From the IMG/VR virus record IMGVR_UViG_3300047548_001418, positions 1-49,953 of that record: 49,953 nucleotides of DNA, one strand, 5' to 3'. This DNA comes from a virus. This document shows positions 4,317 to 30,675 of this stretch, one piece after another. The stretch's first letter is position 1. Each line of letters opens with the position of its first letter. Below the pieces are notes generated by a model. The model was not told the origin of the DNA. It saw nothing but the letters and a program-made list of their open reading frames with translations, and searched no databases. The position numbers and the translations under genes were made by a program.

Positions 4317-5324
4317 TCAACGATATGCTTCACTATACTTGCTTTGCCAAACACTTTCAAAATCTAATTCTTCTTGTTTGACCCAGCCTTTTTTATTTAT
4401 CTTACCTATCACCCAACTATCTAAAACTGACATTACACCTCCCGCAGTGGTCCTCTGAATAGCGGTAATACCCCGAGCGGCTTCAATAATTTTACCATAT
4501 TGGCGAATCTGATATTTGTTGTCTCTATATCCTTTTACATTGATAAGGATAAAAACAAAATCGTTATTTGTTTGGGGAACATGATTATTAAAAAGTTTTA
4601 CAAAGGTATCAAAATTTTCTTTCATACCCAAATCATCTTTTAAAAAGCGCATCATAGACCAATGACCCGGATAGCGCAATGTTTTATAGTTTACATTCTC
4701 TGCCCTACCTAACCAACTATCAGGTAACGATCCTATTCCACCACTGGTGTTTGCAGCCTCTAATCTAGCACCATTAAGCATTACTTCTTCTATATCCGCT
4801 AGTGGATCTAAATATACTAATTTACCCTCCTTGATAGCTGGGCATGGATGAATGTATTCATTAATCAATCCTTCAGTATTCCATGTCCTATAATAACCCA
4901 TGTGATTATTAGCGTTTTCTGGTAACGCACCCACACGAATTTCAATATCTTTTACTTTTTCGAACTGAATTGCCATTTTATTAGCAATAATACTTACCAT
5001 ACCTGGAGCTAAACCACATTGTGTGACAAAAGCCGCGTTGTTTAGTGTTTTGACAAAATTTGTAACATCGACACTTTCAGTTAAATCGAAATAATCTACA
5101 CCTTCTTGGTTACAAATTTCAGCGATTTTAATATTTAAGAAGAAGGGAGTACTGGCTAGTACACCATCTACTGATTTTATGATCGTTGTTAGTAACTCTG
5201 TATTACTTAGATCATGGCCGTTAGACAAGTCATAACCTGTAACAGCAAATCTATCATCCTGTTTAAGCGTATTAAACACACTCATGCCAATATGGCCTAA
5301 TCCTAAAATTGCTAATTTCTTCAT
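4317..5324 (-). CDS. Saccharopine dehydrogenase-like NAD(P)-dependent oxidoreductase
   Basis: 335 residues with an N-terminal Rossmann motif GLGHIG at residues 8-13, followed by a catalytic half containing CGLAPGM and TEGLINEYIHPCP, typical of the saccharopine dehydrogenase/Lys9/carboxynorspermidine synthase superfamily. These enzymes reductively join or split amino acids or polyamines with NAD(P)H. Full-length members are usually 370-450 residues, so this one is compact. It lies between tRNA-Pro and a 56-residue ORF on the same strand. An auxiliary metabolic role, for example lysine or polyamine chemistry, is possible; the substrate cannot be read from the sequence. Confidence 0.82.
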   Translation of the reverse strand: MKKLAILGLGHIGMSVFNTLKQDDRFAVTGYDLSNGHDLSNTELLTTIIKSVDGVLASTPFFLNIKIAEICNQEGVDYFDLTESVDVTNFVKTLNNAAFVTQCGLAPGMVSIIANKMAIQFEKVKDIEIRVGALPENANNHMGYYRTWNTEGLINEYIHPCPAIKEGKLVYLDPLADIEEVMLNGARLEAANTSGGIGSLPDSWLGRAENVNYKTLRYPGHWSMMRFLKDDLGMKENFDTFVKLFNNHVPQTNNDFVFILINVKGYRDNKYQIRQYGKIIEAARGITAIQRTTAGGVMSVLDSWVIGKINKKGWVKQEELDFESVWQSKYSEAYR

Positions 5325-16255: not shown

Positions 16256-16819
16256 CTATGACAACAAAATCCTTGAATGTTTTGGAACCCCCGCAAGCAA
16301 GTATTCCATTTGATCACCCAAAATATTACGACTTTGAAGAATCATGTTTTCGTAATGGTTAGGTACATATGGAGCATACAGCAATTCCAAACCGCTTTCT
16401 TTCAGAGTTTTATTGCTTTTGCGAGAGTTACAGTTTTTACAACTGGTTACTACATTCATCCAAGTGTTTTCTCCGCCGCGACTACGAGGAACAATGTGAT
16501 CACGACTAAGGTGATTGTAGTTAGCAAAATGTCCACCGCAGTACGCGCATACATTTCTGTCTCTACCAAATAAAGTTCGGTTAGACAGTGCTACAGTAGC
16601 GTGCTTGTGCGGATTGAATCCTGGACCCTTGATGGCAATGATACTAGGTGTTTCTAGGTAACTCATTGTTCCGTCTTGCTGAATACCACCGTGGTAACGG
16701 GCAACAATCTCACCCATAGACCATGCTACTGAATTAGTAGCGTGGTATGAAATAGCGTCATCGTATCCAATCCATTGACGCGGGGTACCTGAAATATCTA
16801 GTGCTAGGACAGCCATCAT
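16256..16819 (-). CDS. HNH endonuclease (bacterial-type)
   Basis: 187 residues behind a strong AAAGGAG site. The HNH core reads CAYCGG...LSRDHIVPRSRGGENTWMN and CKNCNSRKSNKTLKE at about residues 96-145, like the widespread bacterial HNH proteins of restriction or repair contexts, rather than the finger-rich phage homing enzymes here. The N-terminal 90 residues (ALDISGTPRQWIGYDDAISY) are also typical of that bacterial group. It lies between tRNA-Asn and tRNA-Arg with its own leader. DNA cleavage is likely; whether it homes, degrades host DNA or acts in packaging is unknown. Confidence 0.88.
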   Translation of the reverse strand: MMAVLALDISGTPRQWIGYDDAISYHATNSVAWSMGEIVARYHGGIQQDGTMSYLETPSIIAIKGPGFNPHKHATVALSNRTLFGRDRNVCAYCGGHFANYNHLSRDHIVPRSRGGENTWMNVVTSCKNCNSRKSNKTLKESGLELLYAPYVPNHYENMILQSRNILGDQMEYLLAGVPKHSRILLS

Positions 16820-19530: not shown

Positions 19531-19559
19531 ATCCTATAATAACTAGGAATAAATGTCAA
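19531..19559 (-). promoter_or_regulatory. Sigma-70 promoter for the small terminated unit
   Basis: TTGACA, 17-base spacer, TAGGAT, partly inside the 3' end of the upstream gene. Confidence 0.65.
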
Positions 19560-20115
19560 CATTGGTATGCCCAAAACTGGTGTTGATGGCTGAAACTAGT
19601 TGGTTAAAAGATCCATTTTCAAATCTAAAAGACACACACATTCTCTCAAGATGTTGGGTAATAACTCTATGCGGTATGTCAGTCCTTACAACCGCACATT
19701 TCCCATACCAAGAATCATCCAAAGTTAAGTCATTATCATGGTCAAATATAGGAAATGTAAAGTTTTGTTGTGTAACTGTTGTATACTTGGCTATGTGCTT
19801 ATTTTTGCTATTTTCAAATCCCTTGAACCATTGCATTACGCCCATACCCGATAATACATTATTGATTGCATAACTAGCACCATCCATATGTATAGGCCCT
19901 TGGTAATCACTAGTGCATTTAAAAACCATTGCGTAGGACTTGATATATAAACTAAATTGCCGCAACCATGATATACCCTCCTGTGTAATGAAATGCTCTA
20001 TGGGATACATTCCCCAATGGTGACCTATCCTATCAGAGGTATACCTTTCTAAATTGTCTGGAACTATAAAAAAGCTATTGAAGTTGGGAGGTAAATCGTA
20101 ATAATACTGAGGCAT
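19543..20115 (-). CDS. 2-oxoglutarate/Fe(II)-oxygenase-like protein
   Basis: 190 residues. H76-x-D78 (GPIHMDGASYAINNVL), distal H149 (TDIPHRVI) and R158 (LERMCVSF) fit the metal triad and co-substrate arginine of the double-stranded beta-helix hydroxylases; the phrase INNVLSGMGVMQWF is like the aspartyl/asparaginyl hydroxylase-like phage proteins. The target is unknown. It opens the accessory cluster that runs to 28154 and is one of three related oxygenases there. Divergent from the next gene at 20157 across 41 bases. Confidence 0.75.
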   Translation of the reverse strand: MPQYYYDLPPNFNSFFIVPDNLERYTSDRIGHHWGMYPIEHFITQEGISWLRQFSLYIKSYAMVFKCTSDYQGPIHMDGASYAINNVLSGMGVMQWFKGFENSKNKHIAKYTTVTQQNFTFPIFDHDNDLTLDDSWYGKCAVVRTDIPHRVITQHLERMCVSFRFENGSFNQLVSAINTSFGHTNVDIYS

Positions 20116-20127
20116 CTTGAAGTTTTT

Positions 20128-20135
20128 TATAAATA
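20128..20135 (+). promoter_or_regulatory. T4-late-like promoter octamer
   Basis: Exact TATAAATA, 22 bases upstream of the ATG at 20157. Similar octamers lie at 16199-16206, about 18927 and 26625-26632 on the minus strand. Confidence 0.5.
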
Positions 20136-20156
20136 AAATATAATATACATATATTT

Positions 20157-20726
20157 ATGAATAATTTTTGCGTTGATCTAAATTTAAATATTTTTCCTAT
20201 TAGAAATTCAATTGAGTCTATCGTTCATGACGGTAATAAAATTTCCCTACATAAAAAAATAACAATTGATTATATTTCACCTGAACTGATTGACCTGTTC
20301 AACCGTTTTGAATTGATGATTGATTTATGCGAAAATTTTTATACGCCTGCTTTTCAGAAAAGTAAAATTCATAGCGATAGCGAACACTATCTTGATGATT
20401 TCATCAAAATCAATTTTATTTTTGGTGGGCGTGATAGTACAATGAATTGGTATAATATAAAAAATAATATAGTTGGTAAAAAACTAAAAACAGGAATTTC
20501 AACTGATTATATATTATATGATGAAAATGACGTTGAAAGAATATTCACTGCCCAAGTAAAATTTCCTAGTTTGATTCAGGCTGGTATTCCTCATAATATA
20601 GAAAATTTATCAGAGCCTCGGTATTGTTTATCTATAATACCTTCAATGAAGGGTAAAAAAATTTCAATGCAACAAGGTATAGAAATTTTCAAAGAGTATC
20701 TAACCAACCCAATTGATTCAATTTAG
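20157..20726 (+). CDS. 2-oxoglutarate/Fe(II)-oxygenase-like protein
   Basis: 189 residues. KIHSDSEHYLDDFIKINFIFGG contains H72-x-D74; GIPHNIEN gives H146 and PRYCLSI gives R155. The order and spacing match those of the gene at 19543, so these two are probably distant paralogues. The enzyme would couple 2-oxoglutarate and O2 to hydroxylation of an unknown target. It is on the plus strand and its end overlaps the convergent SGNH-like gene by 38 bases. A TATAAATA box lies upstream. Confidence 0.72.
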   Translation: MNNFCVDLNLNIFPIRNSIESIVHDGNKISLHKKITIDYISPELIDLFNRFELMIDLCENFYTPAFQKSKIHSDSEHYLDDFIKINFIFGGRDSTMNWYNIKNNIVGKKLKTGISTDYILYDENDVERIFTAQVKFPSLIQAGIPHNIENLSEPRYCLSIIPSMKGKKISMQQGIEIFKEYLTNPIDSI

Positions 20727-21384
20727 GTAAAATAATATTTTTTCCAAATTCTCTACTTGACTCGGCGCTGGGATGGGTGCTATCGAACATAGCCATTTTA
20801 TTTTCAAGAGCCCAGTCTAAATAAAATTCATCTAAATAATCAATCTGATTTTTATCTAAAATATTTTTAAAGATAATCATGGTGCTTTGTTCCATAATAT
20901 CTTTCCAGCCAAAAAATACTAGTAATTTATTGTGATATTTTTTTGCCAATATTAAAACCGATAGTAGTTCTTGGAGGGAATCATTATAATCATGTTCATA
21001 AAAAACAGATTTAGGGATCATCGGGCTTTGACATAGCAAATCTAGCCTAGTATTTTTATCAAAAATATTCTCGTGTGAAACTACAAAATGATTTTTTACA
21101 CCATAAAGCTTGTACGTAGTTTGTATTTCTTTTGCTTTAGATAAATTGATATCATTATTAATTAGTCTTATATGGGGGCGAGTGCATGATGTTATTTCCC
21201 AAAGTATAATATCATTAGTATAAAAAGAATTATGTAAAATATATTCTTGGAATCTTGTGATTTGAAGTTTATTTGAACTTGCACTATGGCTTAAATTAAC
21301 TAATTTTTTATGCGTGTATTCCGCTAAAAATTCTTTCATACCATATATGAACATCAAACTACAACCCAACGCAACCAAATTCAT
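20689..21384 (-). CDS. SGNH-like hydrolase-fold protein
   Basis: 231 residues. Block I is NLVALGCSLMF with Cys-Ser in the nucleophile elbow, then LSHSASSN (oxyanion Gly/Asn-like), and the C-terminus has FDSTHPSAES, the D-x-x-H of SGNH enzymes. It could be an esterase or acyltransferase acting on a sugar or lipid. It is cytoplasmic, without signal peptide. It overlaps the downstream-reading 20157 gene tail-to-tail and shares a 4-base ATGA overlap with the 21381 gene, implying translational coupling. Confidence 0.7.
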   Translation of the reverse strand: MNLVALGCSLMFIYGMKEFLAEYTHKKLVNLSHSASSNKLQITRFQEYILHNSFYTNDIILWEITSCTRPHIRLINNDINLSKAKEIQTTYKLYGVKNHFVVSHENIFDKNTRLDLLCQSPMIPKSVFYEHDYNDSLQELLSVLILAKKYHNKLLVFFGWKDIMEQSTMIIFKNILDKNQIDYLDEFYLDWALENKMAMFDSTHPSAESSREFGKNIILPKLNQLGWLDTL

Positions 21385-21644
21385 TTGTCTACAATAGTAT
21401 GAGATATTATAGTTTTATTTAAACGGTTAGCCAAATTATCGATAAAATCTACGAATTCTTGGGCAGCCTCTTGAGAAACCCAATCTCTAGAATAGGTTGC
21501 TAAACCTGCAAAGTATACGTTCCCATCTGTTTTTTCTTCCTCTATCATTTGGGCTATCTTTACACTTCTTTCTATTTCTATTTCCATATTATTGGCGTCC
21601 TCTGAAGAAGCCCATTCAATTATAGTAGTCTTAGTTAAAATCAT
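21381..21644 (-). CDS. Hypothetical protein
   Basis: 87 residues, hydrophilic, predicted mostly helical with a central AGLATYSRDWVSQEAAQEFVDF. Its stop overlaps the start of the SGNH-like gene, and it begins three bases after the Bug-type protein gene, so it is within the operon. No recognised domain. Confidence 0.7.
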   Translation of the reverse strand: MILTKTTIIEWASSEDANNMEIEIERSVKIAQMIEEEKTDGNVYFAGLATYSRDWVSQEAAQEFVDFIDNLANRLNKTIISHTIVDK

Positions 21645-21647
21645 TTT

Positions 21648-22553
21648 TCACCTATTAAATAAAATGTTATTTTTAAGAATAACTTCTTGTACTAGTTTGT
21701 TATATTTATCATTTATATCTTGGGCTTCCTTATCAAATAATATTATAGGTACGACTCCACGCCTAGCTAATTCAGACTTGAATTCAGTCGTATCCATATT
21801 CGACTTTAAATCAGCCAAAATTTTGTTTTTAATTCCAGGAGCTTGTCGTTTGTCAATAAGAATAACAATTATACTTTCAAACCCAAACTCTTTATTAAAA
21901 ATATTCTTCCAAACAGGAACATTTTTTCTAAAATTGTCTATAGGATGAGTAGCTACTATTACATTAAGTCTAGGATCATCAATAAAGGGCAATAGATTGG
22001 AAAGAATACCAAACACACAGTCTATATGCCCGCCTAACATGTCTGTATAGTGCTTTACTCCTCCTTGATAAGGTATTACCGTAATAAGATCATTTTTTGT
22101 ATGTGATAACAATATTTCTGTGTTCAAATGTTCAGCACCACCTGCAACTGTAGCACCAAAAACTAGTTTTTCTTTATAGTTCAATAAATCTTGTATATTA
22201 TTTATTGACACTTTTTTATTACACGCTAATACACCTGGCATTGTACCTGCTGTAGCAATGACTTCATAATTAGCCACATCGTATGATATACTTTTTTTGT
22301 AAATAATAGGGTTAGTTACGAACATAGTAAAACCTGTAATTATCATGGCGCCGGGATTAAGAGCCATTTCTTGCAAAGCAACTTGTCCTGAAGCTCCAGG
22401 TTTGTTTATTGATACTACCTCTTTGCTGTTCCTAGTAATCATTCTGCTTACAGTATCAACTGTGCCACCTGGTGCGTAGGGGACATATAAAGTTGAATTG
22501 GCAAAAGAATTTTGTGTTATAAAAAATAATAGTATTAAAAAAAATTTCTTCAT
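21648..22553 (-). CDS. Bug/TctC-family solute-binding protein
   Basis: 301 residues with a Sec signal peptide (MKKFFLILLFFITQNSFANS). The mature start VPYAPGGTVDTVSRMI is the signature of the Bug family (tripartite tricarboxylate transporter receptors). GATVAGGAEHLNTEILL and PYQGGVKHYTDMLGGHIDC are further family landmarks. Such periplasmic proteins bind small carboxylates or aromatic acids. It is complete in length (about 300) but no TctA/TctB partner is nearby, so it could recruit a host transporter or act as a scavenger or sensor. It is an unusual cargo for a phage; the family is especially abundant in Burkholderiales. Confidence 0.9.
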   Translation of the reverse strand: MKKFFLILLFFITQNSFANSTLYVPYAPGGTVDTVSRMITRNSKEVVSINKPGASGQVALQEMALNPGAMIITGFTMFVTNPIIYKKSISYDVANYEVIATAGTMPGVLACNKKVSINNIQDLLNYKEKLVFGATVAGGAEHLNTEILLSHTKNDLITVIPYQGGVKHYTDMLGGHIDCVFGILSNLLPFIDDPRLNVIVATHPIDNFRKNVPVWKNIFNKEFGFESIIVILIDKRQAPGIKNKILADLKSNMDTTEFKSELARRGVVPIILFDKEAQDINDKYNKLVQEVILKNNILFNR

Positions 22554-23689
22554 TTCATTTTTCCTATCTGATAGTGTTTACCAAAAGGTATCAGGCCATC
22601 CGCAATACCTAAATCCTCGTTTATACTTATAAAGTTTTTTGCTTCAGCTTTTAAATATTCTATTCCATTTTTCCACCCGTAGAATGCTTTATCTTGTTTG
22701 AAAGTACGGAAAAATATATTAGCAAATTCGTTATGCCAATCAAATACAGGTTTATCAGCTTGATACCATTCATTGTTCCAAGTAGTGTATAATAATGGTC
22801 TCAAAATTCTTTCTTGAACTAAGAGATAATTTTTTCTGTCTAGACTGGACCACAATGTTTTATAATGATGGTTAAATTCTACATATTTTTTAATAATATG
22901 GGCTTGTTTTGCTAACATTTTTAATGAGTCTGGATGCCAATAAAAATATTCTATAGTAACATTATTATAATCTTTAATATGTTCAACTACGCCATAATTA
23001 GCCGTCTTATCGGCGAAGGTAATGTAAAATTCGTCATTTTTAATCCATGTCAAAGGTTTATCTATTCCAAATATCACGGCAATCTTTTTATCTTTGTCAA
23101 ACTTTTTTCTCAGTTCGTTTATATGTAATAGATTATATCTTGTTGTACCTACAGGATTAAGTCGTTCTCTTCTATTAAGTATCCATTCACCGTCTAACTC
23201 TACTGACATAGTTTCAATAAGATGGTCACTCATATCTTTTATTGTAATTTTAGTATTAGGGCAATTATTATAAATTTCTTTTAAACGAGGTATAGTTTGT
23301 AGAAAATGTTCCGCTGAATAATTCTCAGCTTTTTTATTATTTTTATCCAAATCGACAAACTTGTCATTAATCTTAGACATAGTGTTTATGATTAATTCAT
23401 CTATGTGAAGGCCCTGTCTATAGAAACTCATGAATATATTATGTGTGTCACTGCCTGCACTGTAGCTTATAGCAATATAATCATATTTCTCTCGTAATTC
23501 TCTCGCCCTCTGGTCATATAAAAAATCCAATGATTCTTCTGGTTCTATTTTCCAATCAAACTTACTAAATTGTGCATCATTAAAAACCCAGTTAACTGGT
23601 TGATTAGTTTTTGTAGCATAAATGCAAGCTTGAATTTTAGAAAAAAATTCTTTATTCCCTACAATATAATATCCTAATGTTTTGTTCAT
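22550..23689 (-). CDS. PP-loop (asparagine-synthase-like) ATPase
   Basis: 379 residues. The P-loop-like ISYSAGSDTHN (residues 74-84) is an atypical PP-motif (S-x-G-x-D) of N-type ATP pyrophosphatases such as the asparagine-synthetase C-domain. The N-terminal half is novel and rich in aromatic residues. These enzymes adenylate a carboxylate and transfer it to a nucleophile. It overlaps the Bug gene start (ATGA) and the oxygenase stop, so it is translated in the same operon. The substrate cannot be inferred. Two more PP-loop genes are at 25633 and 26684. Confidence 0.72.
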   Translation of the reverse strand: MNKTLGYYIVGNKEFFSKIQACIYATKTNQPVNWVFNDAQFSKFDWKIEPEESLDFLYDQRARELREKYDYIAISYSAGSDTHNIFMSFYRQGLHIDELIINTMSKINDKFVDLDKNNKKAENYSAEHFLQTIPRLKEIYNNCPNTKITIKDMSDHLIETMSVELDGEWILNRRERLNPVGTTRYNLLHINELRKKFDKDKKIAVIFGIDKPLTWIKNDEFYITFADKTANYGVVEHIKDYNNVTIEYFYWHPDSLKMLAKQAHIIKKYVEFNHHYKTLWSSLDRKNYLLVQERILRPLLYTTWNNEWYQADKPVFDWHNEFANIFFRTFKQDKAFYGWKNGIEYLKAEAKNFISINEDLGIADGLIPFGKHYQIGKMK

Positions 23690-24399
23690 AACAAATGCTC
23701 TATGTCTTGTTGATCGTCTAATGATATCATTAAGGTATATCGGTCATGCTTGCTGAAATTCATAACTGCGTGTTTATATCCAGTGTTTAAAAAATATGCA
23801 TACCCAACATCAAATGATGTAGATATAATATCATTCTTTACCCAAAAAACGTTCACACATTCTTTATCACTTATGATAGGAATAATTATTCTAACTTTAT
23901 AGCCTGGATCATAATCAATGTGGGGGCTAATGTGCTTGCCTGCAAAAACTTTTCCTAAACGAATTCGGGCTGCTTTAGATTTAAATCTACTTAGAATATT
24001 ATCTATCAACTCTTGATTTTCAATATAGTGTTCCGTTTTTGAATTATGCAGCGATTCATTGAGTAACGAATTATCTGCATCCATCAATTGTTTTTTATTT
24101 CTAAAACTCTTAGTTTTTGAACCCACATTCAAATTTTTATCTAACTTACTTAAATCATTAAAATCTATTTTGATATTATTTAATTTAGTGTCTGTCAATG
24201 CTATTTCATAAAAATTTTCATATGAATCTTCTACTAAGGTTTTATGTATTTGCGATGCTGTTTTGTTTATGTCTATCAACGGTCTGAACTTAGAGTCTGA
24301 TTTTATAACCAGCTGCTGTAGCTCTTGAATCAAACTATTCTCTAATACTATGTTATCTAATTTCTGAAAGGGGGGTAATGAATGTTTTAATTTGATCAT
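23686..24399 (-). CDS. Aspartyl-hydroxylase-like 2OG/Fe(II)-oxygenase
   Basis: 237 residues. ISPHIDYDPGYKVRIIIP gives H160-x-D162 and the following conserved Arg; GYKHAVMNFSKHDRYTLMISL gives distal H210 and R220. This layout is typical of aspartyl/asparaginyl beta-hydroxylase-like proteins. The first 140 residues are a helical extension. It is the third oxygenase of the cluster and lies between the PP-loop and desaturase genes, separated by 3 bases and a 4-base overlap respectively. Confidence 0.8.
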   Translation of the reverse strand: MIKLKHSLPPFQKLDNIVLENSLIQELQQLVIKSDSKFRPLIDINKTASQIHKTLVEDSYENFYEIALTDTKLNNIKIDFNDLSKLDKNLNVGSKTKSFRNKKQLMDADNSLLNESLHNSKTEHYIENQELIDNILSRFKSKAARIRLGKVFAGKHISPHIDYDPGYKVRIIIPIISDKECVNVFWVKNDIISTSFDVGYAYFLNTGYKHAVMNFSKHDRYTLMISLDDQQDIEHLL

Positions 24400-24402
24400 A
24401 TT

Positions 24403-25104
24403 TTACTTTATATATTCATAAATTTTTCCGCCCCAATCAAACTTATGTCTAAAGCTTGGGTTGGCGGGCTGTTCATGGTGATTTTTATGAAAACCTTCAC
24501 CTCCTACTAGTAACCCCAATAAAGTTTTATTTATTGGGCCTGTCTTATCGTGGCAAAAAATATTGATTAAGCTACCACCAAACCACATAACAAACCCCGG
24601 TATAATGAACAAGACCCAATAATATATGAATGGCAAGCAAATTATACCTAATATATGGACACTTACTAAAACCTTGAAATAATGTTTGTGTTGAAATACG
24701 TATATGTTTTTCTTAAGTAGATCAGGGACATATTTTAGTAAGTCTTTATTATTATCTGAGAGTTGCCAATACGCTTTGAACTTTCCCAATATTATTGGAC
24801 TGTGTGGATCTTTTATAGTGTCACTAAATCTATGATGTTTTCTATGTGCGCCTGCCCAGGCAATTGCAGAAGAAGTCGCACCCAACCACGATAGTAAAAC
24901 AAGAATGTTTTCCATTATGGGGTTTATTTTATTTTTATGTGCAACTATTCTATGGAATAGAACTGTACCACAAAATCCCACAAAAAATATTTGGTTAAAA
25001 ATTATTGCAGGTATCGAAACATACAAGGGAATAATGAATAGGCCCATTAAAAACATTAAGTGAATATATATTTGAAGAGTTATAAGTTTTTTGTAAAAAT
25101 TCAT
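24403..25104 (-). CDS. Membrane fatty-acid desaturase
   Basis: 233 residues from the ATG at 25104 (GGAA site, ATGA overlap with the upstream stop). Hydrophobic segments alternate with three histidine boxes: HRIVAH, HRKHH and HKNHH, the di-iron ligands of integral-membrane acyl-CoA/acyl-lipid desaturases. The enzyme would introduce a double bond in a fatty acyl chain in the host membrane. It is shorter than usual (about 300) but all boxes are present. Membrane-lipid change or modification of a lipid intermediate of the cluster are possible roles. Confidence 0.88.
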   Translation of the reverse strand: MNFYKKLITLQIYIHLMFLMGLFIIPLYVSIPAIIFNQIFFVGFCGTVLFHRIVAHKNKINPIMENILVLLSWLGATSSAIAWAGAHRKHHRFSDTIKDPHSPIILGKFKAYWQLSDNNKDLLKYVPDLLKKNIYVFQHKHYFKVLVSVHILGIICLPFIYYWVLFIIPGFVMWFGGSLINIFCHDKTGPINKTLLGLLVGGEGFHKNHHEQPANPSFRHKFDWGGKIYEYIK

Positions 25105-25640
25105 AGTATGAGTTCCAATATCCATTGTGGCACGTTATTAAACATTATGGGTTCTGGGCTAGATGTAAAATTTAGATGAGGTAATTCTTTACTTATTAAG
25201 TATTTATGTGCCATGAATAGTTTATGATTATATCCATTGTATGAAAAAATTACCTTAGAGCAATCATTTCGTTTAGCCCTATCTATTTGATGAGGTACCA
25301 TATATCTAAAAGTAGGCGAGGAACCTATCAAACCTTTACGAGTAGCAAGATCGATGTTAGCAAATCCCCTAAAGAGTCCTTGATACACTTTGTCATTATT
25401 TATAAATCTAATTATCCCCCCGGAACCAGTCCAAATTTTATTTTTATTGTATATTAATTGGTAAGTATCAATTTCATGATTTTGAATTGTGGCTAGTAGC
25501 CCCCATTTAACTTTATCGCCATAATTGTCAGGTAAATTCTCTCTGTCCGTATTAAATTTAGCGCATAAAGCATTTTCTAGCTCTGTCAAAAAATCTCTCT
25601 TGTTATTGCTACTCAATGTTACTATACGTAGGTTATCCAT
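25101..25640 (-). CDS. Hypothetical protein, possibly GNAT-like
   Basis: 179 residues. It overlaps both neighbours by 4-8 bases. A central GSGGIIRFINNDKVYQGLFRGF and later KVIFSYNGYNHKLFMAHKY are reminiscent of the acetyl-CoA-binding and C-terminal strands of N-acyltransferases, but the diagnostic Q/R-x-x-G-x-G/A motif is absent. Sitting between a desaturase and a PP-loop enzyme, an acyl transfer role would make sense, but this is speculative. Confidence 0.6.
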   Translation of the reverse strand: MDNLRIVTLSSNNKRDFLTELENALCAKFNTDRENLPDNYGDKVKWGLLATIQNHEIDTYQLIYNKNKIWTGSGGIIRFINNDKVYQGLFRGFANIDLATRKGLIGSSPTFRYMVPHQIDRAKRNDCSKVIFSYNGYNHKLFMAHKYLISKELPHLNFTSSPEPIMFNNVPQWILELIL

Positions 25641-26619
25641 TTTTAATTGAACCCCTAGTCATTTCTGCGAAAACATCATCTATTGTTTTTAATACTACAC
25701 GGTTACTGATCTCACCTTTGTATTTTTTAATTAGAAATTCTCTGTATTCAGCCACTAAAGGCTCAACTTTTTCTAAACCATATTTCTTTGTGCGAGTAAT
25801 AATATCGGGATACACTTGGCGCCACCCTAGTATTTTTGTACTGTTGATTCCTAGTTTACCTATATATTCATCATTTCTTAACTTTTTCGACCAGTCACTA
25901 GTTATCTGTGCCAAATATAATTCGGGAGTAAACTTTAACCAACACATTATAGCTTCCCTATTTTTTTCTTTACTATATCTTTCCCATCCTATCTCGATTT
26001 CGTCGTTAACATGAACCCAAAATCCTTTTTTAGTGTAATCAGTATCTTCAACCATTTGAGCTTGATAAGTAACTTCTTTGTAATTAGAAGAGCATTTCAG
26101 CCTTCTCCAAGTAGCATTACCATCCCCTCCAATTACCAATGAATTATCATCTATGTAATCTATAAATTTTAGTTGTGGTAAACCCCTTGGATCACCGATC
26201 TGAGATACCTCACTTATATGTTCTGCTTCATTTTCAAAAAATTTAGCTAAGGAAAAATCTATTATTTTATAAGGTATATTATACAATTCCGCTACTGTCA
26301 CAGCATGTGATACATCGTATAAATTGAAATCATTCTCATACCTAAATATATAAGCATGCATATCAACATTTAAATCCTTAAATGTCCTAGCAACTAACTC
26401 ACTATCAATACCACCTGAAAATAATATAGAAATTTTTTTATTTGGGAAACATTCCAGTGTTTTTATAGCGTTTCGTCTTATTTCATATTTTATAGAAAAA
26501 TATGATGTAATATTAGAATCTAATTCTATTGTTAAATTGGACGATACAGTCTGTTTTCTGGAAAGTAGTTTTCCATCATAATACCATTTAAACCAATTGT
26601 TATACGTAGTTTGTATCAT
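25633..26619 (-). CDS. PP-loop (asparagine-synthase-like) ATPase
   Basis: 328 residues from the ATG at 26619; the longer frame to 26652 begins with a non-ATG codon and lies across a TATAAATA box, so it is rejected. ILFSGGIDSELVARTF (SGGIDS at 68-73) is a canonical N-type ATP pyrophosphatase loop as in asparagine synthetase and QueC. The C-terminal half (GGDGNATWRRL, GWRQVYPD) is similar in plan to the 26684 protein. It lacks a glutamine amidotransferase domain, so it would use another amine or carboxylate partner. Confidence 0.82.
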   Translation of the reverse strand: MIQTTYNNWFKWYYDGKLLSRKQTVSSNLTIELDSNITSYFSIKYEIRRNAIKTLECFPNKKISILFSGGIDSELVARTFKDLNVDMHAYIFRYENDFNLYDVSHAVTVAELYNIPYKIIDFSLAKFFENEAEHISEVSQIGDPRGLPQLKFIDYIDDNSLVIGGDGNATWRRLKCSSNYKEVTYQAQMVEDTDYTKKGFWVHVNDEIEIGWERYSKEKNREAIMCWLKFTPELYLAQITSDWSKKLRNDEYIGKLGINSTKILGWRQVYPDIITRTKKYGLEKVEPLVAEYREFLIKKYKGEISNRVVLKTIDDVFAEMTRGSIKNG

Positions 26620-26683
26620 AACTATATTTATAATGCATTGTTTGTTACACAACTAAATAAACAAGCAGAAAGTTATTCACTAT

Positions 26684-27598
26684 ATGAATATTATTTGGCG
26701 AGATGGCCTTGACAACTATAAACAGTATACACATAATATAAATGTAGATACCAATATACATAATTTCAATATTGAAATATTAGATATTCCCTATACAGAG
26801 TATAGTTCTCTATCTGATTATACTGTAAGCGTGCTGGGGAACAAGGGTACAAAATTTGTTGATATATTATATAGTGGTGGATTAGACAGTGAATTGGCCC
26901 TTGTACTATGCTTACAAAACAAAATACCAGTTCGCGCCATCACAATGAGATTGATAGTAAAGGGTTATGCCATTAACACACATGACCTATATTATAGTGA
27001 AAAGTTTTGCAGAGCAAATAATGTCCAGCACATCATTATTGATTTAGATGTCGAACACTTTTTTGAAAATGGTATTCATATAAACTATCTTAGCCCTTAT
27101 TTTATAACAGAGCCACATGTTGCAACTCATTTTTGGTTATTTGAACAATGTGAGGGATTCCCTGTATTGGGAGGTGATTATAGTTGGCCCTGGGTGCATA
27201 AACCTCTTTTGAGTCCTCACAGACACAACTACTCTTATTACGACAAGTTTCTAAGGGATAATAATATGGAGGGTATAGGAAATTTTTTGAATTACAGCTT
27301 GGCATCAAATTTAATTTGTATAAAAACGCATCTGGAAGTATTCAAGAAAAATCAGTTAGAAACCGATCCCAAAAATATACCAATATTTAAACAAAGTTTT
27401 TGGGGAACATTGAATCTTCCTCTGCCTGAGCGAAGAGCTAGAAGTTACGGGTGGGACAACTCATCAGTATTTAATTTATCCCGTTATAAAGTCAGTCTAA
27501 TTAAAGAATTTGGAGTAACACATAGCACTATTACATGGGGAAATCATATAACCAATATTATTGGTGGTGATAGAAATACAAATGGAAAATACAACTAA
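26684..27598 (+). CDS. PP-loop (asparagine-synthase-like) ATPase
   Basis: 304 residues. SGGLDSE at 64-70 is the PP-loop. It shares with the 25633 protein the AVTVAELYN/YYSEKFCRANN helix region after the loop, the D-x-E-H-F-F-E-N/FFENE element and a GGDYSW/GGDGNATW signature. The two are divergent paralogues across a 64-base intergenic gap. Its 3' end overlaps the next gene by 17 bases, so they are probably co-translated. Confidence 0.8.
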   Translation: MNIIWRDGLDNYKQYTHNINVDTNIHNFNIEILDIPYTEYSSLSDYTVSVLGNKGTKFVDILYSGGLDSELALVLCLQNKIPVRAITMRLIVKGYAINTHDLYYSEKFCRANNVQHIIIDLDVEHFFENGIHINYLSPYFITEPHVATHFWLFEQCEGFPVLGGDYSWPWVHKPLLSPHRHNYSYYDKFLRDNNMEGIGNFLNYSLASNLICIKTHLEVFKKNQLETDPKNIPIFKQSFWGTLNLPLPERRARSYGWDNSSVFNLSRYKVSLIKEFGVTHSTITWGNHITNIIGGDRNTNGKYN

Positions 27599-28154
27599 TA
27601 TAAATTTTGACGCTTTTAGCCATGGCCAAATAAAAAGTAAATTGTGGCTTTGTGAGAACCTAGAAAACCATATACCCAATTTAGCTAATGTATGTATATT
27701 AGGTTCATGGTATAATATTTTGGCATTCATGTTATTAACTAGAAACCCTAGTAGCTTCCAATCTATTGTAGGAATGGATATAGATGCTAATGCCACATGT
27801 GTAGCAGATAAAATTATTAATTATTGGTCTATTGAGGGGATGAATGTCTCAAATAAAAATGTAGATGTCAATAATCAACCTTTAGAAATGTATAATGTTG
27901 TTATTAACTGTTCACCAGAACACATGGAAAAATCAGATTGGTTTAATAACATAATTCCTGGTACTTTAGTATGTATCCAATCAAGTAATGTTTTGGATGC
28001 TAACCATCCCTGGTATATAAAAAACCCCAGCCCTGACCTAAATAGCTTTGCATCTAAATATCCCCTTAGAGAGATATTATTTTTAGATACACTACCTATA
28101 AGGTACAGTAACGGCTGGGGATATGATCGCTATATGATAATAGGTATCAAATAG
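27582..28154 (+). CDS. Rossmann methyltransferase-like protein
   Basis: 190 residues from the ATG at 27582 (GGTGATAG upstream). VCILGSWYNILAF followed by IVGMDIDANA is the SAM-binding motif I/II pattern of class I methyltransferases, and YNVVINCSPEHM (acidic/NCSP post-strand 4) resembles the catalytic region. It overlaps the PP-loop gene and converges on ahpD with an 8-base overlap. The acceptor is unknown; it may modify the product of the cluster. Confidence 0.65.
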   Translation: MENTTNINFDAFSHGQIKSKLWLCENLENHIPNLANVCILGSWYNILAFMLLTRNPSSFQSIVGMDIDANATCVADKIINYWSIEGMNVSNKNVDVNNQPLEMYNVVINCSPEHMEKSDWFNNIIPGTLVCIQSSNVLDANHPWYIKNPSPDLNSFASKYPLREILFLDTLPIRYSNGWGYDRYMIIGIK

Positions 28155-28662
28155 CGACTTTACCTACTGCGTTAATAACCGCAGCAATCTTACCTACTGC
28201 TTGTAATTGCTGAACAGTCATACCTTCATTCTTAAGAATGTCGTAATGTGACTTAACACAGAAATGGCACTTACCTACTATTGAAGCGCATAGTGCGTAC
28301 ATTTCAAACTTTTTCTTTGAAACTCCGCCATGTGTAGCATAAGCTTGCATACGCAATCCTGCAGGCAAACCTTTTAGATTAGCATCACCTGTCATTTCAA
28401 CAAATGGATAATAAACATTGTTCATACCCATAAGTGCTGCTGCCGTCTTAGCAGCTTCACGCTCAGGTGTGCCCATAAGAGGACCATTCATACCAATCTC
28501 AAATGCCAACTCACCGTTACCAGCCATGATAGCTGCGGCTAACGCACAAGCATGTGCATCGATTTCATCTAAGCCTGAACGATTGATTACTGCGTCCAAG
28601 TTTAGCTTGATATCTTTAGCATGGTCAGGGATGCTATTTTTTACCTGATCTACCCAATTCAT
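28147..28662 (-). CDS. ahpD: Alkylhydroperoxidase AhpD
   Basis: 171 residues, typical for AhpD (about 175). The active-site motif CHFCVKSH (Cys-x-x-Cys-x3-His) is present near residue 131, with the preceding helix ALCASIVGK. AhpD relays electrons to AhpC and has weak peroxidase activity. The start overlaps the ahpC stop (ATGA), as in bacterial ahpCD operons. Together they would detoxify peroxides in the infected cell. Complete, no missing residues seen. Confidence 0.95.
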   Translation of the reverse strand: MNWVDQVKNSIPDHAKDIKLNLDAVINRSGLDEIDAHACALAAAIMAGNGELAFEIGMNGPLMGTPEREAAKTAAALMGMNNVYYPFVEMTGDANLKGLPAGLRMQAYATHGGVSKKKFEMYALCASIVGKCHFCVKSHYDILKNEGMTVQQLQAVGKIAAVINAVGKVAI

Positions 28663-29192
28663 AGTGTTTCACCACCGATAGCACGATTGCAAGGGCAAAG
28701 CTCACCAGTTTGTAGTGCGTCAAGTACACGCAGAGTTTCGTCTGCGTTACGACCAACGTCTAGGTTGTTGACTGTAACATGTTGAATAACATTGTTTGGA
28801 TCAACAATAAAAGTTGCACGTAGAGCGGCACCTGCTGGTGCATAAAAAACACCTAGTTGATCGATTAGACTACGCTCATCGCGCGCTGTATCAGCGAATT
28901 GTACATGGCTGATTTTGCTTAGATCAGAGTGGGCTTTTTGCCAACCTAGTTTGCAGAACTCGTTGTCGGTTGAACCAGTTAGCAGAACGGCGCCGCGGTC
29001 AATAAAGTCTTGAACTAGCTTATCGTAAGCTACGATTTCTGTAGGGCATACGAAAGTGAAGTCTTTTGGATAGTAAACAATTACTTTCCACTTACCTTCA
29101 AATGATTTTTCTGTAATGTTAAAAAACTTATCGCTACCTGGATTGATACCAGTAACTACGAATGATTCTAGTTTGTCGCCTACTGTTTTCAT
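28659..29192 (-). CDS. ahpC: Alkyl hydroperoxide reductase AhpC (2-Cys peroxiredoxin)
   Basis: 177 residues from the ATG at 29192 (CAGGAGAG site); the longer frame is an upstream artefact. The peroxidatic Cys is in DFTFVCPTE, the resolving Cys in GELCPCN near residue 165. It reduces peroxides and peroxynitrite. Located at the head of an ahpC-ahpD pair with its own promoter and a palindrome in the leader. This pairing in a phage suggests managing oxidative stress during infection; the electron donor is unknown, with glutaredoxin at 35156 one candidate. Confidence 0.95.
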   Translation of the reverse strand: MKTVGDKLESFVVTGINPGSDKFFNITEKSFEGKWKVIVYYPKDFTFVCPTEIVAYDKLVQDFIDRGAVLLTGSTDNEFCKLGWQKAHSDLSKISHVQFADTARDERSLIDQLGVFYAPAGAALRATFIVDPNNVIQHVTVNNLDVGRNADETLRVLDALQTGELCPCNRAIGGETL

Positions 29193-30146: not shown

Positions 30147-30541
30147 TCAAGACAAATTTTGTTTTTTCTTGTAATCCTCAATAGCAGATTTGATAGCATC
30201 TTCAGCCAGTATTGAACAGTGAATTTTTACTGGTGGCAATGCTAACTCTTCTGCGATTTCAGTATTAGTAATAGTTCCTGCTTGCTCTAATGTCTTACCC
30301 TTGACTAACTCTGTAACTAAGCTTGATGAAGCAATCGCAGAACCGCAGCCATAAGTTTTGAACTTAGCATCCGTAATTATTTTAGTTTCTGGGTTGACTT
30401 TGATTTGAAGCTTTAGAACATCTCCTAACCGCACGCTGGGGCACCGACTAAACCGGTCCCAACGTGCGCGTCCTCCTTATTAAAACTTCCTACGTTTCTT
30501 GGGTTATTATAGTGATCTAAAACTTTGTCTGAGTATGCCAT
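30147..30541 (-). pseudogene. iscU: IscU/NifU-like Fe-S scaffold gene with internal frameshift
   Basis: The ATG at 30541 opens a frame beginning AYSDKVLDHYNNPRNVGS, clearly IscU. It reads to VGAPACG and stops at TAG (30426 region). The next codons in another frame continue GDVLKLQIKVN...KTYGCGSAIASSSLVTEL and KIHCSILAEDAI, which include the other two cluster-ligand Cys. The break is a 4-base surplus (TTAG) between TGCGG and GAGATGTT, right at the first ligand. All three Cys are retained, so it is either a recent mutation, an assembly error or an unusual recoding site. Function in its intact form: Fe-S cluster assembly scaffold. Confidence 0.8.
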
Positions 30542-30552
30542 TTTGTTTGCTC

Positions 30553-30675
30553 TTAAGGTTTATTGCTTGTAAACAAAGATACGATTTTAGATTTTACAAC
30601 TTTGGCCCAAGTAGGTTCAGGGATATGCCAACCAATAAAAGCGCCAATTAAAATACCTAATAAAACGTCCATCAT
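30553..30675 (-). CDS. Small membrane protein, 40 aa
   Basis: An excellent ribosome site (AAAGGAG) precedes ATG at 30675. The product (MMDVLLGILIGAFIGWHIPE) has one membrane helix at residues 3-17 followed by a short basic tail (WAKVVKSKIVSLF). Similar single-helix proteins are frequent in aquatic T4-like phages. It precedes the IscU-like gene by 11 bases. Function unknown; a membrane-anchored regulator or small holin-like peptide are possibilities. Confidence 0.65.
   Translation of the reverse strand: MMDVLLGILIGAFIGWHIPEPTWAKVVKSKIVSLFTSNKP

Follow-up and report, generated by a model that had tools for sequence, protein, structure and literature searches.

The 49,953-base fragment analysed here (the window; IMG/VR record IMGVR_UViG_3300047548_001418, placed among viruses by its IMG/VR class) carries an island of long, mostly overlapping open reading frames (ORFs) at positions 19543-28154, whose genes we label A to L. 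The island is a genuine gene cluster under selection, and it contains two modules: a stable core, J-I-H-G, and a variable add-on, F-E. Joint action of the island enzymes is well supported, and the product that we infer from them is a more tentative matter. We cautiously favour a phage-borne biosynthetic (tailoring) operon that modifies an acyl/amino-acid-type molecule through aminolipid or N-acyl amino acid chemistry. The genes of the two modules are as follows.

25633-26619, minus strand: J, PP-loop ATPase with an SGGIDSE motif, 328 amino acids (aa); motif and weak QueC/Asn-synthase matches; family A8 (17 members)
25101-25640, minus strand: I, GNAT-fold N-acyltransferase-like protein, 179 aa; predicted fold; relatives at 40-47% identity
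24403-25125, minus strand: H, membrane di-iron fatty-acid-desaturase-like protein, 240 aa; PF00487, E=1e-7; relatives at 57-64% identity
23686-24399, minus strand: G, Fe(II)/2-oxoglutarate (2OG) hydroxylase of the Asp_Arg_Hydrox family (PF05118), 237 aa; E=9e-6, above the cut-off
22550-23689, minus strand: F, synthetase-type PP-loop ATPase with SAGSDT and GIDKP motifs, 379 aa; predicted fold
21648-22553, minus strand: E, Bug/TctC periplasmic solute-binding protein with a signal peptide; PF03401, E=3e-20

The four core genes are contiguous and in identical order in the window and in the related loci L002, L046/L047, L094, L095 and L096, with a B12 radical-SAM gene inserted after J in L046/L047 and L096. 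Two of the phage contigs that carry the block measure 524 and 352 kb. L002 and L003 were reached through a desaturase scan, and L092-L096 through a GNAT scan. Compared with the window, the proteins of these block-bearing contigs are 57-64% identical for H, 45-48% for G and 40-47% for I; J reaches only about 16-22%. The core is under purifying selection in relatives: in the L046/L096 pair, the ratio of nonsynonymous to synonymous substitution rates (dN/dS) is 0.11 for J, 0.10 for I, 0.06 for a PP-loop protein of cluster c9 and 0.15 for the B12 radical-SAM protein, where only comparisons with dS below saturation are counted and several saturated ones are not relied on. The His boxes of H are all intact (HRIVAH, HRKHH and HKNHH), and the protein has hydrophobic segments as in membrane desaturases. 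The G site consists of HID (160-162), H210 and R220, and H160, D162, H210 and R220 are invariant in alignment A10. J and the island protein K belong to a single PP-loop family, in which the SGG motif is invariant and which is related to F (hhalign probability 95%). The conserved order, the purifying selection in relatives and the intact catalytic motifs thus support a joint function for J-I-H-G.

Further assignments within the core come from predicted structures and profile comparisons. The AlphaFold model of I (pLDDT 85.5) retrieves GNATs in Foldseek, with a best E of 7.5e-7, and the matches to this predicted fold include the N-acyl amino acid synthase FeeM (E=5e-5); a Pfam search with I gave no match. 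H matches the DesA family at E=2.5e-17, under the cut-off of that family, and a search of G for LpxO/OlsC orthology returned no NCBIfam or PDB sequence match. J could also start further upstream, at a TTG at 26652. The usual place of J, directly upstream of I, is taken in L003 by a complete asparagine synthetase with an N-terminal cysteine, a hint that J performs amide chemistry. The c9 protein of L046 (8306-9757, 483 aa, with homologues in L095 and L096) is an apparent PP-loop/GNAT fusion, whose C-terminal half resembles, by eye, the GNAT-like c29 proteins.

The linkage of desaturase and hydroxylase extends well beyond these contigs. Viral contigs were scanned with hydroxylase G alone, such that loci were not picked for a desaturase; 171 viral relatives were found and 80 loci fetched. 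A desaturase of the H family is present within ~6 kb of the G relative in 65 of the 80 loci, and in 31/34 or 12/14 after dereplication at 90% or 70% identity, respectively, always on the same strand. All His boxes are kept in 65/65 of these desaturases, and a GNAT is present in half of the loci dereplicated at the first level (17/34). The cultured Pelagibacter phage Mosig EXVC030M (host HTCC1062) carries the set of desaturase, PF05118 hydroxylase and GNAT-like protein in an operon that encloses a peroxiredoxin, and the window has AhpC/AhpD genes adjoining its own island. Two other candidates were set aside: the desaturase of Acinetobacter 'phage' MD-2021a looks like bacterial DNA, and the 2OG protein of Xanthomonas phage X1 sits beside an 'NAD(+) synthase' in a NAD-salvage context that is not the same cluster.

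The add-on module is defined by the adjacency of F and Bug. An alignment-based scan identified 201 F relatives in viral contigs; the locus analyses use 80 of these, which represent 54 loci after dereplication. In 24 of the 54, the gene directly next to F on the same strand encodes Bug, compared with a mean of 5.1 and a maximum of 11 in 500 gene-order shuffles. Distances among F and Bug proteins are correlated over 21 pairs (Mantel r=0.64, 0/2000 permutations), a statistic that ignores phage phylogeny. Unlike the core, the F/Bug alleles swap between close relatives, and the F proteins of L046 and L096 share 24% identity. In the window, the first 4 bases of E double as the last 4 of F. E begins with a hydrophobic signal sequence, as do the fetched Bug proteins; in L073-L075 the signal comes after extra N-terminal residues that look like the result of a start called too early. 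Among solved Bug relatives, the best match of E is a terephthalate-binding protein (E=4e-16). TctA and TctB were not recognised in the window.

Other transport-type proteins also occur near F. Cluster c2 comprises DctP/TRAP-type solute-binding proteins in 27 loci (L044, L045, L049, L052, L053, L056 and 21 among L062-L091, for example L067:9417-10376), which are split into two adjacent ORFs in L062, L072 and L079. A signal sequence was found in none of them, unlike the nearby Bug proteins, so they may be cytoplasmic. A small DUF2061 membrane protein (cluster c8, for example L065:13821-14108) adjoins F in 10 of the 54 loci, with a shuffle mean of 1.6. Bug/DctP matches in phage records were rejected because they look like bacterial DNA; the phage-collection records AGRM01000002.1, AFYI01000003.1, CAKLQH020000002.1 and OR851081.1 are apparently pieces of bacterial chromosomes.

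F itself carries the signature of a PP-loop synthetase: S77, G79 and D81 are invariant in 52 aligned sequences (SAGSDT in the window copy), and E247, Y301 and K313 are near-invariant in the same alignment. A Pfam search with F gave no match. The AlphaFold model built from this alignment has a pLDDT of 94.4, and its best solved fold match is the carbapenam synthetase CarA (1q19, E=4.6e-5, TM-score 0.38), followed at lower rank by GMP synthetase, asparagine synthetase and beta-lactam synthetase at TM-scores of about 0.3-0.4. Because these scores are low, we read the likeness as a shared synthetase domain and not as close kinship; identity to CarA, beta-lactam synthetase and AsnB is ~9-11% over the fold alignment. 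F is without the N-terminal Ntn glutaminase-like domain, and only ~50 aa precede its synthetase part. Sequence-profile matches of F (phmmer/HMM) to fengycin synthetase, spliceosomal 15K and DpnA were dropped as chance, since the fold search gave them no support.

The relatives described here were recovered by alignment-based scans and the desaturase scan. Searches for F relatives in 50,697 phage records, with the F copies used as queries, found none, and nothing came back from tblastn searches of phage records with F, J and K or from single-protein pattern scans of viral contigs. Of two genome scans with F, the first came back empty and the second found two Bacteriovoracales loci; F relatives are present in 4 of 129 Bacteriovoracia genomes (L097, L098, L181 and L182), at 28-29% identity where aligned, with no Bug, desaturase or GNAT of the island families in the DNA seen. 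Outside viruses, F relatives turned up only in Bacteriovoracia, in pattern-based genome scans of limited reach. In L097, the F relative adjoins glycosyltransferase-like, DegT-like and epimerase-like genes.

In the biosynthetic scheme that we favour, J would adenylate a carboxylate for conversion to an amide, I would transfer an acyl group onto an amine, and H and G would contribute a double bond and a hydroxyl, respectively. The predicted product is an acylated, unsaturated and hydroxylated molecule containing an amino acid or amine; candidates are N-acyl amino acids, aminolipids and lipid-like metabolites of the envelope of the infected cell. Bug may bind a small carboxylate in the periplasm for the tripartite carboxylate transporter of the host, and F could then activate the collected carboxylate with ATP and join it to an amine. 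The broader proposal, that large aquatic phages run dedicated synthesis of an acylated amino-acid-type metabolite fed by Bug and its cognate near phage-specific F, coupling carboxylate uptake to amidation, is speculative and, in our estimate, unlikely.

Several observations weigh against this scheme. Non-lipid substrates are also known for the desaturase superfamily, PF05118 proteins have other hydroxylation targets too, and acetylation is the usual reaction of GNATs; FeeM is just one of many GNATs matched by the fold of I, and the substrate assignments of the island proteins are putative. An OlsA/PlsC-type second acyltransferase was not recognised in profile searches of the scanned island proteins, and F hardly matches AsnB by sequence. 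The F-Bug correlation is without correction for phage phylogeny. The contigs bearing the block come from related phages, so the shared J-I-H-G order partly reflects common descent; when only lineage-independent loci are counted, closeness of desaturase and GNAT is modest (6/12 versus 2.7 expected). The GNAT label of cluster c74 was assigned by eye. Finally, related islands add a flavin tryptophan halogenase, a Rieske oxygenase, a P450, B12 and SPASM radical-SAM enzymes and sulfotransferase-like proteins, which makes one fixed product unlikely. Examples include a cytochrome P450 with a cupin nearby in a phage island (L094:19297-20433; PF00067, E=1e-19) and the flavin tryptophan-halogenase-like (PF04820) and Rieske oxygenase-like families c37 (L052, L053, L056, L073-L075 and L078) and c101 (L013-L015 and L017), which lie near F in other phages.

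These additional enzymes are among the points that favour a polar secondary metabolite rather than an acyl lipid, a toxin or signal directed at competitors or superinfecting phages, for which the desaturase and hydroxylases would serve as natural-product tailoring enzymes. A product of this kind was proposed by Iyer et al. for cyanophage S-SSM6a, and the fold of F resembles those of carbapenam and beta-lactam synthetases; nonetheless, no backbone builder (non-ribosomal peptide synthetase, polyketide synthase or precursor of a ribosomally synthesised and modified peptide) is recognised in the window, nor were export and immunity genes recognised, and we regard this explanation as somewhat unlikely. 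Decoration of host surface polysaccharide or lipopolysaccharide with amide, acyl, methyl or hydroxyl groups, to block superinfection or alter a receptor, appears improbable: the lipid A hydroxylase LpxO belongs to the 2OG class and the F relatives of four Bacteriovoracia genomes include the L097 copy with the neighbours named above, yet the window island has no recognised glycosyltransferase or nucleotide-sugar gene. Modification of a virion protein such as a tail fibre is very unlikely, since a membrane desaturase and a secreted Bug fit it poorly and the direct flanks of the window island are AhpC/D and tRNA genes, despite the tail-fibre-like genes found near such genes in Mosig, L013, L020 and L035.

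The remaining two explanations are at the bottom of our scale. Enzymes with PP-loop, GNAT and radical-SAM folds are found among tRNA modifiers, and the 27 tRNA genes of the window end beside the island, so the PP-loop, 2OG, methyltransferase and GNAT proteins could be imagined as modifiers serving these tRNAs. The best fold matches of F, however, are carboxylate-amide synthetases and not TilS, the desaturase and Bug do not fit, and no tRNA is annotated within 10 kb of the Mosig cassette. Equally doubtful is a set of unrelated cargo genes that gathered at an insertion hot spot and do not work together. The island is low in GC, L011 carries different cargo at the same locus, A and C are without relatives in the fetched set and the F/Bug alleles swap; against this stand the fixed J-I-H-G order, the 31/34 desaturase-hydroxylase linkage and the adjacency and correlation of F and Bug. 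Unrelated cargo is thus disfavoured for J-I-H-G and F-E and may apply to A, B, C, K and L. A defence role is also rated low; PADLOC gave only weak partial matches to QueC, AbiB and E1-E2.

The other island genes, which apart from D may be unrelated cargo, and the adjoining AhpC/AhpD locus are listed below.

27582-28154, plus strand: L, methyltransferase-like Rossmann protein; weak match to MTS, E=0.012
26684-27598, plus strand: K, PP-loop ATPase with an SGGLDSE motif, 304 aa; motif and weak QueC match, E=0.0046; same family as J
21381-21644, minus strand: D, small 87-aa ORF with no assigned function; 39% identity to L046:16147-16416
20689-21384, minus strand: C, SGNH-hydrolase-like protein, 231 aa; motifs only, GCS near the N-terminus and DSTHP near the C-terminus
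20157-20726, plus strand: B, 2OG-oxygenase-like protein, 189 aa, H72xD74...H146 (HSD ... PH); motif; family of 8 phage proteins
19543-20115, minus strand: A, 2OG-oxygenase-like protein, 190 aa, H76xD78...H149 (HMD ... PH ... R); motif only
28147-29192, minus strand: AhpD-like and AhpC-like genes (PF02627 and PF00578); conserved neighbours of the island in L011, L046, L095 and L096

K, L and B are on the strand opposite to the main J-to-C run, and K is transcribed divergently from J. L may start earlier, at a TTG at 27561, and has a homologue at the same locus in L011 (35% identity); the D homologue in L046 sits outside the J-G block. Profile searches with C gave no family match, a Pfam search with B gave no match, and no relatives of A or C occur among the fetched loci. 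Promoter and terminator scans showed no excess over shuffles.

The sequence-only reading had named most of these gene types, and all of those it named are present: E, H, G and F are firm by profile or fold and J and K rest on motifs and weak matches, while A, B and C are recognised by motif only and L weakly, and the GNAT I and the small ORF D had been overlooked. Its description of genes packed with 4-base overlaps applies to three junctions only, C/D, E/F and F/G; the others range from -38 to +64. That the genes are together by more than chance is borne out by the viral relatives of F, G, H, I and J, with their conserved order and low dN/dS in relatives. A role in making or modifying a small molecule, lipid or macromolecule gains support as far as joint action of J-I-H-G is concerned, with the product itself at the level of inference. 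A search for the same gene set in other phages had been suggested as a check; the J-I-H-G and F-Bug parts do recur and the rest varies between relatives. Independent insertion, free variation and inactive sites, named beforehand as signs against a functional cluster, are not seen for J-I-H-G or the F-Bug pair and apply in part to the F/Bug alleles and to A, B, C, K and L, which all vary between relatives at the same locus.

The source of the window is probably an uncultured bacterial virus of very large size. Contigs that share its gene neighbourhood are up to 524 kb and 352 kb long and encode a terminase, and for this reason a jumbo phage is the most likely origin; the ribonucleotide reductase of the window is nearest to that of Xanthomonas phage X1 (60%). 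The island is bounded by the AhpC/AhpD genes on one side and the tRNA region on the other. The AhpC/AhpD flank is 71-83% identical in L046/L011, and on the other flank an HNH protein (16256-16819) is 75-76% identical in relatives; with both flanks conserved, an assembly join is an unlikely origin of the island. The island is AT-rich, with a GC content of 31% compared with 38% in the flanking backbone. Further out, an IscU/NifU-like gene (30147-30600, minus strand) is split by a frameshift that places its N- and C-terminal parts in different frames; it is uninterrupted in L002 and L046, and the break in the window is either an assembly error or a real loss. A saccharopine dehydrogenase-like protein (4317-5324, minus strand; PF16653, E=4e-19) lies amid the tRNA genes.

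Single metabolic genes are a familiar part of phage genomes. The multi-gene cassettes described here, with fixed order, purifying selection and intact oxygen-activating sites, suggest that phages also run short biosynthetic pathways. The coupling of a Bug receptor to the F ligase, if true, would represent a phage metabolic module of a kind not described before, and the F family with its periplasmic receptor offers a place to start. With the desaturase-hydroxylase-GNAT part also present in the cultured phage Mosig, the question of the product is directly testable.

Comparison with known systems places the island among, and apart from, several precedents. A secondary-metabolite cluster with halogenase, 2OG and carbamoyltransferase genes has been proposed in jumbo cyanophages (Iyer et al. 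2021, PMC7824862), so the idea of such a cluster in phages is not new, and the sequence-only remark that no phage system with this combination was known needs tempering to that extent. A limited literature search found no description of PP-loop, GNAT, desaturase and PF05118 proteins together or of a PP-loop protein paired with a periplasmic receptor. The 'second gene cluster' of S-SSM6a, the published proposal that comes closest, is similar in that a large phage carries 8-12 small-molecule tailoring genes including 2OG oxygenases, with a secondary metabolite or capsule decoration as predicted product (PMC7824862). However, it is built on carbamoyltransferases, a halogenase and a HemK-like methylase, none of which was found in the window island by profile searches, whereas the window is built on PP-loop synthetases, a desaturase, PF05118, GNAT and Bug. 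By annotation, the Mosig operon resembles the island in its fatty-acid desaturase, two Asp_Arg_Hydrox proteins, GNAT-like protein and peroxiredoxin; it differs in that aminotransferase-like, FMN reductase, TauD and methyltransferase genes replace the PP-loop proteins, and no Bug is annotated.

Among bacterial systems, CarA, beta-lactam synthetase and AsnB share the PP-loop synthetase-domain fold predicted for F, a protein without their glutaminase-like N-terminal domain. The parallel with carbapenam pathways drawn from the sequence is thus borne out in CarA being the best solved fold match, and goes no further than that given the missing domain and the low TM-score; a beta-lactam product is conjectural. 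In ornithine lipid synthesis, OlsB is the enzyme that N-acylates ornithine, and a hydroxyl is put on the acyl chain by OlsC, which was recognised as the LpxO homologue of Brucella microti and Ochrobactrum (PMC3972451, PMC5767591). This is the nearest chemical parallel that we know of, and the island would follow a similar logic of N-acyltransferase and 2OG acyl hydroxylase; unlike that pathway, it has an extra desaturase and PP-loop protein and no recognised OlsA, and its G is a protein of 237 aa. E shares with Bug/TctC receptors the fold family, the signal peptide and the PGG ligand loop, and differs from them in being phage-encoded beside a PP-loop gene.

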